Below are positions 3,267 through 5,602 of a DNA stretch of 64,000 nt, one piece after another; the stretch's first letter is position 1, and each line of letters starts with the position of its first letter. Location of the stretch: the NCBI RefSeq assembly GCF_002284575.1, contig NZ_NPKJ01000071.1:1-64000 (forward strand), in the 5' to 3' direction. Origin of the DNA: Mesorhizobium temperatum (GTDB taxonomy: Bacteria > Pseudomonadota > Alphaproteobacteria > Rhizobiales > Rhizobiaceae). The translations under genes and the position numbers were made by a program. Under the pieces are notes generated by a model, which searched no databases, had not been told where the DNA came from, and was given only the letters and a program-made list of their open reading frames with translations.

Positions 3267-3428
3267 ATGGCGAGCAAGCTGGTTTGGGGCATTCTCGGTG
3301 GGGTGGTGCTGGGGGCCGCGTTCGGCAATGTGGGCGGCAACACCGGGATCTGGATTGCCGTTTGTATCGCGGCCGGTGCTGTCGCGGCCGGCCTATGGTA
3401 CTACATGGACACGCGGCGCCAGGGCTGA
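3267..3428 (+). CDS. Glycine-rich mini-membrane protein
   Basis: A 53-residue protein starting MASKLVWGILGG, with two short hydrophobic segments rich in Gly and Ala and a charged C-terminus (YYMDTRRQG). The start at 3267 is preceded by a GAAAGGA ribosome binding site at about 8 bp spacing, better than the in-frame ATG at 3210. No family is recognised; the glycine-zipper look suggests a small inner-membrane protein. The lone position between divergent lepA and the DUF1223 gene says little about its job. Confidence 0.6.
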   Translation: MASKLVWGILGGVVLGAAFGNVGGNTGIWIAVCIAAGAVAAGLWYYMDTRRQG

Positions 3429-3583
3429 GCGCAGGCGGCCGAAGACGCCGTTGTTCGCGGCATCGCGCCGGCAGCAAACGAAGGTAGACGATCACGAAGC
3501 GGTGATCGCTGTAACGAACCGCATTGCGGCGCCGAAGTGTGGACATGACGGCGCTTCACGCCCGTCGCAGCGGAGGACAGCCG

Positions 3584-4309
3584 ATGATCGGATCAAGAGC
3601 CAAACGCAGCAGAAGCGTGATGCAATCAAGCGCAGGCGCGGTCCTTGTAGGGCTCGCCGCTGCTCTGTTTTCGGCAACCGGCGCGGCCGGCCAGCCGCTC
3701 ACCGTGGTCGAGCTGTTCACCAGCCAGGGCTGTTCGTCCTGCCCGCCGGCCAACGCCAATCTGATCAAGGTCAGGGACCGCCCAGGCGTGCTGGCGCTCT
3801 CCTTCAACGTCACCTACTGGGACTATCTCGGCTGGAAGGACACTTTCGGCAGAGAGGAATTCACCCAGCGCCAGGTCCGCTACGAACCGTCGCTCGGCCG
3901 TTCGGGTCCGTTCACGCCGCAAGTGGTGGTCAATGGCAATGCCGATGCGGTCGGCGCCCGGCCCGGCGAGATCGAGCAGCTGATTGCGAGCAGCGGCCGC
4001 GCGAAAGGACCCTCGCTGTCGCTCGACGGCGGCAAGATCGCCATCGGCGCCGGCCCGGTGTCAGGCGGCAAGGCCGATATCTGGCTGGTGCGCTACCGGC
4101 AAGGTGTTATCGAAGTGCCGGTGGCGCGCGGCGAAAACACCGGACGCACGCTGCCGCACGCCAATGTCGTGCATTCCCTCTCCAGGCTTGGCGCCTGGAC
4201 CGGCGATGCCCTCGCGCTGCCGCTGCCGGCACCGCCGAGCGGGCTCAGCACCGCAGTGCTGGTGCAGGTGCCAGATGGCGGACCGATCCTGGCCGCCGCG
4301 ACGAACTAG
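3584..4309 (+). CDS. DUF1223 family exported thioredoxin-fold protein
   Basis: The 241-residue product has a basic N-terminus and a hydrophobic stretch around residues 12-32 (signal peptide or anchor), followed by VVELFTSQGCSSCPPANANL, the hallmark CxxC-containing motif of DUF1223 proteins. These are predicted to have a thioredoxin-like fold with a beta-rich C-terminal half; their substrate is not known. Several in-frame starts exist upstream (3524, 3545), but the ATG at 3584 follows a GGAGGA site at good spacing. It is followed in the same orientation by the methionine-rich MxKDx gene and an exported MsrA, so a role in extracytoplasmic thiol or sulfoxide chemistry is possible, but that is inference. 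Confidence 0.85.
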   Translation: MIGSRAKRSRSVMQSSAGAVLVGLAAALFSATGAAGQPLTVVELFTSQGCSSCPPANANLIKVRDRPGVLALSFNVTYWDYLGWKDTFGREEFTQRQVRYEPSLGRSGPFTPQVVVNGNADAVGARPGEIEQLIASSGRAKGPSLSLDGGKIAIGAGPVSGGKADIWLVRYRQGVIEVPVARGENTGRTLPHANVVHSLSRLGAWTGDALALPLPAPPSGLSTAVLVQVPDGGPILAAATN

Positions 4310-4389: not shown

Positions 4390-4662
4390 ATGACCAACTT
4401 CACCCGCCTGACGCTGCCGGTGCTCGCCTTCGCGCTTTGCTCGACGGCGCTTTTCGCCGGCGGCACTACCCGCGCCGAAGATGCGATGAAGCCCGCGGAC
4501 CCGATGGCCACGGATGCCATGGCCACCGACGCGATGAAGCCGGCCGACCCGATGGCCGCCGAGAAGATAAAGGACTGCATGGTCAAGGCAGCCATGGAAA
4601 CGGACGTGATGAAGAAGGATGAGGCAACGAAAGCCTGCGACGCGATGGGCATGGCCAAGTAG
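4390..4662 (+). CDS. Exported methionine-rich pentapeptide MxKDx-type protein
   Basis: The 90-residue precursor has a clear signal peptide (hydrophobic core LTLPVLAFALCSTALFAGG, processing likely near the Ala-Glu around residues 29-30). The mature part is built of short repeats with Met every five residues or so (AMKPADPMATDAMATDAM), then a segment with two Cys (about residues 63 and 83). About 10 of the 61 mature residues are Met. This matches the MxKDx repeat family, a poorly characterised group of small secreted proteins. An AGAGGAGA ribosome binding site precedes the ATG. The msrA gene for an exported methionine sulfoxide reductase lies 199 bp downstream on the same strand. Confidence 0.85.
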   Translation: MTNFTRLTLPVLAFALCSTALFAGGTTRAEDAMKPADPMATDAMATDAMKPADPMAAEKIKDCMVKAAMETDVMKKDEATKACDAMGMAK

Positions 4663-4760
4663 GTTTCGGGGCCATCCCTGCTCGTTCCTGTCGAGATCAG
4701 GGACAGGCCCTTGCGGCCCGGCGCGGGGGCAACCCTGCGCCTGCGCAGCATTCCAGATAC

Positions 4761-4800
4761 GCACGGCCCGAACTATGCGCGGCCCGAACTACGCACGGCA
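4761..4800 (+). repeat. Two-and-a-half-copy 16-bp tandem repeat
   Basis: The unit GCACGGCCCGAACTAT at 4761-4776 is followed directly by GCGCGGCCCGAACTAC at 4777-4792 and a third partial copy GCACGGCA. It lies between the MxKDx gene and msrA, about 60 bp before the msrA start, so it could be part of the msrA promoter region or slippage debris. Confidence 0.8.
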
Positions 4801-4861
4801 ATGTGAAACGCCGGCGGACTTATATGTTCTATAGTCAAAACACCATCATGGGAGATCCGAC

Positions 4862-5602
4862 ATGACCGGTATTCGAGAACCCGTTGCGAGGCGGTCGATG
4901 AACTTCGCCAGGGGCGCGCTTGCGGCGCTGATGCTCGCGGCGGCCAGCGCCGCCTTGTGGCAGACGCCGGCAAGCTCGGCCGAGGAGGCGGTGGTGATCC
5001 CGCCGCCGGCGATGGACGAGAAACCCGCCGCCAGCACCGCGAAGGCGGTCTTCGCCGGTGGCTGCTTCTGGGGCGTGCAAGGCGTGTTCCAGCACGTCAA
5101 GGGCGTGACCAGCGCCGTCTCCGGCTACGCCGGCGGCGACAAGGACACTGCCGTCTACGAGACGGTCGGCACCGGCCGGACCGGGCACGCCGAAGCCGTC
5201 GAGATCACCTACGAGCCGACAGAGGTGACCTACGGCCAGTTGCTGCAGGTGTATTTCTCGGTCGCGCACAACCCGACGCAGCTGAACTATCAGGGTCCGG
5301 ACCGCGGCCCGCAATACCGTTCGACGATCTTTGCCGAAAACGATGCCCAGAAGAAGATCGCCGAGACCTACATCGCCCAGCTCGACAAGGCCAAGGTATT
5401 TCCGGAGCCGATCGTGACCACGCTGGAGACCGGCAAACCATTCTATCCGGCCGAAGACTATCACCAGGACTTTTTGACGCTGAACCCGACCTACCCCTAC
5501 ATCGTCTACAACGACCTGCCCAAGGTCGAGAATCTGAAGCGGCTATTCCCCAGCCTTTACAGCGACAAGCCGGTGCTGGTGCTGGCCACCAACAAGAGCT
5601 GA
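4862..5602 (+). CDS. msrA: Peptide-methionine (S)-S-oxide reductase MsrA, exported form
   Basis: MsrA reduces the S epimer of methionine sulfoxide. The catalytic motif GGCFWGVQG places the active Cys at residue 68; the family motifs GYAGG, GHAEAV and YYxxEDYHQ-like FYPAEDYHQDF follow. About 40 residues precede the catalytic domain and look like a signal peptide (hydrophobic stretch near residues 19-33, then SSAEEA), implying a periplasmic enzyme rather than the usual cytosolic one. Cys68 is the only cysteine after the signal region, so no resolving cysteine is present; regeneration would need an external reductant. A GGGAGA site precedes the ATG. The neighbour upstream is the exported Met-rich protein, a plausible substrate. 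Confidence 0.93.
   Translation: MTGIREPVARRSMNFARGALAALMLAAASAALWQTPASSAEEAVVIPPPAMDEKPAASTAKAVFAGGCFWGVQGVFQHVKGVTSAVSGYAGGDKDTAVYETVGTGRTGHAEAVEITYEPTEVTYGQLLQVYFSVAHNPTQLNYQGPDRGPQYRSTIFAENDAQKKIAETYIAQLDKAKVFPEPIVTTLETGKPFYPAEDYHQDFLTLNPTYPYIVYNDLPKVENLKRLFPSLYSDKPVLVLATNKS

Follow-up and report, generated by a model that had tools for sequence, protein, structure and literature searches.

A candidate envelope oxidant-defence operon in Mesorhizobium that joins an exported methionine-rich peptide to an exported single-cysteine MsrA

An exported methionine-rich peptide encoded beside an exported methionine sulfoxide (MetSO) reductase raises the question of whether the two work together, the peptide as a sink for oxidants and the enzyme as its means of repair. 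Mesorhizobium includes partners of legumes in root nodules. We analyzed a 64-kb stretch of DNA (the window, contig C33) from the 7.17-Mb genome of Mesorhizobium temperatum (G000, here the source genome), in which genes for a DUF1223 protein, a Met-rich peptide and an MsrA follow one another on the plus strand (Table 1). The original prediction proposed that the peptide and MsrA could be such a pair, with the DUF1223 protein as a possible thiol donor.

Table 1. Predicted features of the peptide-MsrA locus, in window coordinates.
Feature	Position	Strand	Basis or remark
Candidate operator GATCAC-GAAGCG-GTGATC, conserved inverted repeat	3490-3507	no strand	directly 5' of the -35 element
Predicted group-16 ECF sigma promoter TGTAAC-N17-CGAA	3510-3536	+	consensus fit, spacing kept in genus
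Exported DUF1223 protein, CSSC, optional operon member	3584-4309	+	PF06764, PDB 2AXO
Exported Met-rich MxKDx-like peptide	4390-4662	+	10 Met/61 mature residues
Exported single-cysteine MsrA, Cys68 in GGCFWG	4862-5602	+	PF01625, TIGR00401

The peptide and MsrA both appear to be exported, and the cysteine of MsrA in its active-site motif is its only one. Signal peptides were called by eye and from hydropathy, with no dedicated program. The peptide ORF encodes 90 amino acids; by eye, cleavage would fall after ARA-29, and the mature part has two Cys in addition to its Met. The MXKDX model TIGR02953 gave 35.8 bits (E 5.8e-9), under its curated cut-off of 41, and for that reason MxKDx-like is a fair name for the peptide. 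Among ten relatives, four scored at least 41 bits, three scored lower and three gave no match. MsrA (246 amino acids) scored above cut-off with both domain models (PF01625, 190.7 bits; TIGR00401, 171.6 bits). GCFWG was invariant in an alignment of 19 exported MsrA proteins, and the orthologues L048-L080 have no Cys C-terminal to the catalytic one, as against seven more distant MsrA proteins (L081-L087) in which additional Cys are present. The window MsrA has no resolving Cys after its catalytic Cys. By eye, a hydrophobic leader ahead of the MsrA domain recurs in exported orthologues from other genera. The second MsrA of the source genome (contig C58) lacks an obvious leader and contains more Cys near its C-terminus.

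The DUF1223 protein scored above cut-off with its family model (194.5 bits) and matched PDB 2AXO with 120 bits (E 1.2e-33). Because 2AXO is classed as thioredoxin-like in SCOP (PMC3091736), the protein is, by homology, probably a CxxC protein of the thioredoxin fold. The original prediction had thus described the parts correctly: its counts of Met and mature residues, the single cysteine of MsrA, the gap of 199 bp between the peptide and MsrA genes, a DUF1223 protein with CxxC just upstream, and the apparent export of both peptide and MsrA all held on reanalysis. A separate msrA promoter could fit into the gap. Between lepA and the predicted promoter there is also a 53-amino-acid, hydrophobic, Gly-rich ORF (3267-3428), for which profile searches returned no family above cut-off.

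The peptide gene lies upstream of the exported MsrA gene in nearly all Mesorhizobium loci that we examined. An exported MsrA of the window type was found in 115 of 119 genomes of the genus (116 matches), and we examined 72 of these 116 loci: the 30 best, two earlier ones and 40 lower-ranked. One match, in G203, consists of the C-terminal part only and stands outside the 72. With thresholds of 7% Met and 4 Met, a Met-rich exported peptide was present at 67 of the 72 loci, counts that are not independent because the loci share ancestry. Two of the five loci without it end at contig borders (L109 and L121, with 684 and 278 nt of DNA before the MsrA match), and three are true absences (L143, L147 and L156). 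Under stricter thresholds (10% Met, 5 Met, low Arg), a Met-rich exported ORF was found at 66 of the 70 loci for which 1,400 nt or more of upstream DNA was available, and the same scan of the minus strand of these 70 regions found none. Among the best 80 of 594 matches in named genomes, the top 18 matches of the window MsrA were Mesorhizobium, and 17 of these 18 named loci were positive at 10% Met, 5 Met and low Arg; they overlap the other genomes of the genus and are not independent of them. A second Met-rich match at L122, antisense to lepA, was left uncounted. Based on this genus-wide conservation and the empty minus-strand control, we rejected chance adjacency of peptide and MsrA.

The peptides themselves vary. 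Their Met fraction ranges from 11% to 20%, and, by eye, their lengths differ through in-frame changes in DAMKPA-like repeats, and the mature part of many has no Cys. At L155 and L123 the peptide gene ends more than 1.1 kb ahead of MsrA. DUF1223 is also present at 54 of the 72 loci. The G249 genome has two exported MsrA copies: the first (L116) sits in a standard operon with the peptide, and the second (L147, contig C225) lacks both the peptide and the promoter motif.

The unit is preceded by a motif that fits promoters of group-16 ECF sigma factors. The sequence TGTAACGAACCGCATTGCGGCGCCGAA agrees with the group-16 consensus as given in PMC3420878 and PMC3511200, and GTAACG-N15-CCGA within it (3511-3535) conforms to the EcfF consensus GTAAC(g,a)-N14-15-(c,t)CG(t,a) (PMC3420878). 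Because the motif overlaps a TTG at 3524, the ATG at 3584 is the likelier start of DUF1223. GTAAC-N16/17-CGA was found upstream at 62 of the 72 loci (59 with N17, three with N16). Seven of the ten loci without the motif have at most 1,504 nt of upstream DNA, and the rest are L143, L147 and L156, which lack motif and peptide alike. Over 150 kb upstream of the genus MsrA genes, the N17 spacing occurred 59 times and other spacings 0-8 times; altered or minus-strand motifs in the same DNA occurred 0-5 times. These counts too come from loci of common ancestry and are not independent. For a motif logo, 55 N17 rows were thinned to 45 that differ by more than 15%. In these 45 dissimilar promoters, aligned on GTAAC-N17-CGA, an A follows CGA in every one, and the spacer varies. 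Where DUF1223 is missing (13 loci), the distance from the end of the motif to the peptide gene is 9-121 nt, and therefore the promoter follows the peptide, with DUF1223 an optional member. We conclude that the peptide and MsrA genes are a real unit, conserved and, as far as the genomes indicate, predicted to be co-regulated.

An inverted repeat accompanies the predicted promoter. TCAC-N5-8-GTGA lies just 5' of the motif at 55 of the 58 genus loci with enough DNA, and the spacing is identical in 41 of these, one nt shorter in 13 and one nt longer in one. The palindrome is a candidate operator of a second regulator. We dropped the idea that it marks a broad regulon, since the source genome has one exact copy (that in the window) and one copy with a single mismatch, versus two matches to a control pattern.

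The motif is not in excess across whole genomes. There were 63 sites in 13 genomes of the genus versus 84 for the reversed pattern, and the source genome was not above background (4 versus 12); our functional argument therefore rests on position and spacing only. One of the four exact sites of the strict form TGTAAC-N17-CGAA in the source genome precedes the window operon; the others lie before the gene for an exported MsrB, that for a peroxiredoxin of the AhpC/TSA family and a DUF2282-DUF692-DUF2063 (bufABC-like) operon. We classified 30 of the 63 sites, using as family queries sequences from the source genome and from one locus of the set itself. Seventeen lie before the families tested (five before the DUF1223/peptide/MsrA unit, six before exported-type MsrB, three before leaderless MsrB and three before peroxiredoxin), two of them in the source genome, and the other 13 lie before none of the four families. 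The leaderless MsrB genes of other Mesorhizobium (L252, L257 and L263) have the ECF16 motif about 70 nt upstream. The exported MsrB is of the TAT type (L006, 4029-4535 on the minus strand; G000 contig C71), has its own ECF16 motif and lies directly 3' of a group of genes for a SigK-like sigma factor, RskA and fasciclin.

A candidate sigma factor and its anti-sigma factor are encoded in the source genome. An ecfF-nrsF pair lies elsewhere in that genome (NrsF, 177 bits); the sigma factor passes NCBIfam PRK12512 (249 bits versus a cut-off of 198), and ecfF carries its own GTAAC-N17-CGA motif. Judging by its NrsF partner and this motif, the sigma factor probably belongs to group 16, and an EcfF-type sigma factor would read the motif at 3510. 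In M. composti (L174) the ecfF-nrsF pair (NrsF, 188 bits) and peptide-MsrA are transcribed away from each other, with motifs facing each way. At L070, from another genus of the same family, an ECF sigma gene is likewise divergent from peptide-MsrA, with two divergent motifs, and at L071, from the genus of L070, ecfF-nrsF is divergent from an MsrA without the peptide.

MsrP above its cut-off is rare in the genus. The best score of the MsrP model NF003767 in the source genome was about 100 bits (99.8-100.8), far under the cut-off of 207, and MsrP was above cut-off in two of 61 genus genomes, G210 (L238) and G236 (L239). G210 has no exported MsrA match, G236 has both enzymes, and in G252 no exported MsrA was matched and no MsrP passed the cut-off. 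Replacement of MsrP by MsrA is therefore not a strict either-or. The MsrP gene of G236 is on a 5.6-kb contig, near what look by eye like pieces of ecfF and nrsF. The exported Met-rich peptide that marks the MrpX/BcrX system is present in the window, and because an above-cut-off MsrP is not, we do not file the locus as a member of that system; it may well function like one.

Outside Mesorhizobium the pair is rare. At MsrA loci of other genera in the same family (L050-L080; thresholds of at least 9% Met and 5 Met), the peptide was found at one of 31, and MsrB lay within 3 kb at seven of the 31. The more distant MsrA loci L081-L087 were excluded from this set, and the scan for Met-rich ORFs found none there. 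Among the best 80 of 594 matches, the 62 named loci from other genera included none with the peptide (10% Met, 5 Met, low Arg) and 37 with MsrB within about 2.6 kb. The expectation that the pair would recur among relatives was thus upheld within Mesorhizobium and failed for the Rhizobiales at large, and we rejected a general Rhizobiales pairing. Exported MsrA occurs without the peptide in many genera, and MsrA must therefore have other substrates.

Three loci beyond the genus have a different arrangement. At L199, L223 and L232 (hosts Pseudomonas fluorescens PS858, Cupriavidus agavae and an unclassified Rhizobiales isolate) the gene for a long protein stands between those for exported MsrB and exported MsrA. 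The long protein, which we take to be DipZ by name, matches redoxin and Thioredoxin_10 above cut-off and also matches DsbD_TM, above cut-off in L232 only. These rows offer hints of how an exported MsrA with a single Cys may be reduced there.

In our view the window locus is probably an operon for the defence of the envelope against oxidants. It would run a variant of the hypochlorite-scavenging MrpX/BcrX cycle, with exported MsrA, and MsrB encoded elsewhere, in place of MsrPQ. A group-16 ECF sigma factor of the EcfF/SigF type, held by its NrsF anti-sigma factor, would be freed by reactive chlorine or similar oxidants and would start transcription of the unit immediately 3' of position 3536. 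After secretion of the Met-rich peptide to the periplasm, its methionines would take up oxidant sacrificially, and exported MsrA would reduce the Met-S-sulfoxide of the peptide and of other envelope proteins through Cys68. Since MsrA reduces one diastereomer only, Met-S-sulfoxide, a stand-in for MsrPQ also needs the exported MsrB, whose gene lies elsewhere behind an ECF16 motif of its own and whose substrate would be Met-R-sulfoxide; MsrA and MsrB together would then cover the role of MsrPQ in Azospira and Brucella. Electrons might come from DUF1223, from a thioredoxin-like protein fed by CcdA, or from both. The gene order, predicted export, conserved motif, exported MsrB with its motif and lack of an above-cut-off MsrP support this reading from sequence; we infer that the sigma factor matches the motif, that oxidants induce the unit, and that the peptide is oxidized and then repaired by MsrA and MsrB. 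A fuller version is possible but rather doubtful: a molybdenum-free periplasmic Met redox cycle with a DUF1223 relay in most species, a second regulator bound at the palindrome and a role in nodule infection. In such a cycle the repetitive Met-rich peptide would buffer oxidants repeatedly, its Met restored each time by exported single-Cys MsrA and the TAT-type MsrB.

Known systems of group-16 ECF sigma factors control MetSO reductases or MrpX/BcrX (PMC3420878, PMC8315932), and several described systems share features with the locus. Azospira suillum likewise has an exported Met-rich peptide (MrpX), a periplasmic MetSO reductase (YedYZ, MsrPQ) and a sigma and anti-sigma factor of the SigF/NrsF type, the latter known in Mesorhizobium from genes alone (PMC4623255, PMC8315932). 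However, the Azospira reductase is the molybdoenzyme YedYZ, whereas Mesorhizobium has the thiol enzyme MsrA and an exported MsrB at another locus. In Brucella melitensis (BcrXQP, with BcrS/AbcS of ECF16) an MXKDX peptide is co-transcribed with a MetSO reductase and induced by HOCl, and bcrX is driven by an ECF16 promoter, the same kind as predicted for the window operon (PMC8315932); BcrQP is MsrPQ-like, and the term MsrA is absent from the main text of that article. EcfF/OsrA of Bradyrhizobium japonicum involves a group-16 sigma factor, as predicted for the window operon, there set over three MetSO reductase genes, but its inducer is H2O2, and "methionine-rich" occurs 0 times in the portion of PMC3420878 consulted. 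RpoE2 of Haemophilus influenzae resembles the proposed scheme as an HOCl-responsive ECF sigma factor over a periplasmic thiol Msr (PMC7907618), but its anti-sigma factor is group-13-like, the reductase is MsrAB, and "methionine-rich" is absent from the article. For Bacillus cereus, exported Met has been proposed as a rechargeable antioxidant with the thiol enzyme MsrAB, although there MsrAB is cytoplasmic and the Met carriers are ordinary exoproteins (PMC5526929).

The nearest literature precedent for the use of MsrA is a remark in PMC4623255 on perchlorate reduction islands. The islands of P. militaris MP and D. hydrogenophilus LT-1 hold exported MsrA/MsrB, which were proposed in 2015 to serve the same function as the sigF/nrsF-yedYZ-mrpX methionine cycle. 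These islands are horizontally moved, whereas the Mesorhizobium unit is genus-wide and mostly without MsrP; the section of PMC4623255 on the islands makes no statement as to whether they hold mrpX. We found no description of a Met-rich peptide adjoining an exported MsrA in the open-access literature searched. The original prediction had called the pairing with MsrA one that it did not know as described, and within the literature searched this stands for the adjacency of the genes, but not for the wider idea, as exported MsrA/MsrB have been discussed together with the mrpX cycle (PMC4623255).

Expression data have been published for M. huakuii. All four msr genes were up with NaOCl, and msrA2 and msrB2 were strongly up in roots and nodules; three of the four did not respond to H2O2, which counts against the oxidant-sink model (PMC13272141). 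The words "periplasm" and "signal peptide" are absent from the main text, and the parts consulted do not state which of MsrA1 and MsrA2 is the exported one. If the proposed function is right, the oxidant-sink strategy of Azospira and Brucella would be independent of the molybdoenzyme MsrPQ, and a sigma factor and a peptide of this kind could be coupled to thiol reductases. It would also open two questions to testing, the way in which an exported single-Cys MsrA regains its reduced state in the periplasm and the function of DUF1223, and it would provide a gene set for the study of rhizobial envelope oxidant tolerance, legume infection included.

Peptide and MsrA could instead be neighbors in one regulon and not enzyme and substrate, with MsrA in general envelope repair and the peptide in another role, such as periplasmic binding of copper or soft metals. 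We regard this as somewhat unlikely. The two mature Cys of the window peptide would suit a metal ligand, but Cys-free mature parts are common in the genus (by eye). The Caulobacter SigF regulon, which answers to chromium and cadmium, has DUF2282/DUF692/DUF2063 operons (PMC3511200), and such an operon lies behind the same motif in the source genome; the homologue in Azospira, on the other hand, has a sacrificial role (PMC8315932). Exported MsrA without the peptide in many genera would agree with a general repair enzyme, yet within Mesorhizobium the peptide is almost always upstream of it. That the two genes are chance neighbors under independent regulation we consider very improbable. The width of the gap between them, a DUF1223 gene that comes and goes and a pair nearly limited to one genus could be read that way, but the conservation is genus-wide, the motif spacing is fixed while the spacers vary, the promoter tracks the peptide when DUF1223 is absent and is gone where the peptide is gone, and at L174 and L070 the same pair has an ECF sigma gene next to it.

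For the electron supply of an oxidant-defence operon, DUF1223 could be the dedicated donor of the single-Cys MsrA, along a path from CcdA through DUF1223 to Cys68; we think this unlikely. DUF1223 would be an exported CxxC protein of the thioredoxin fold within the same predicted transcript, it accompanies MsrA at most loci of the genus, and a CcdA-like protein is the only DsbD_TM match in the source genome. However, at 13 loci the operon has peptide, MsrA and promoter but no DUF1223, which rules out DUF1223 as a general donor encoded within the operon. The idea of an indispensable in-operon donor is weakened accordingly, although all 13 genomes encode a DUF1223 elsewhere. The protein with DsbD_TM-like, redoxin and Thioredoxin_10 matches that MsrB and MsrA flank in L199, L223 and L232 suggests another type of donor there. 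The source genome itself has a second DUF1223 paralogue, at contig C39:436190-436777 (L280).
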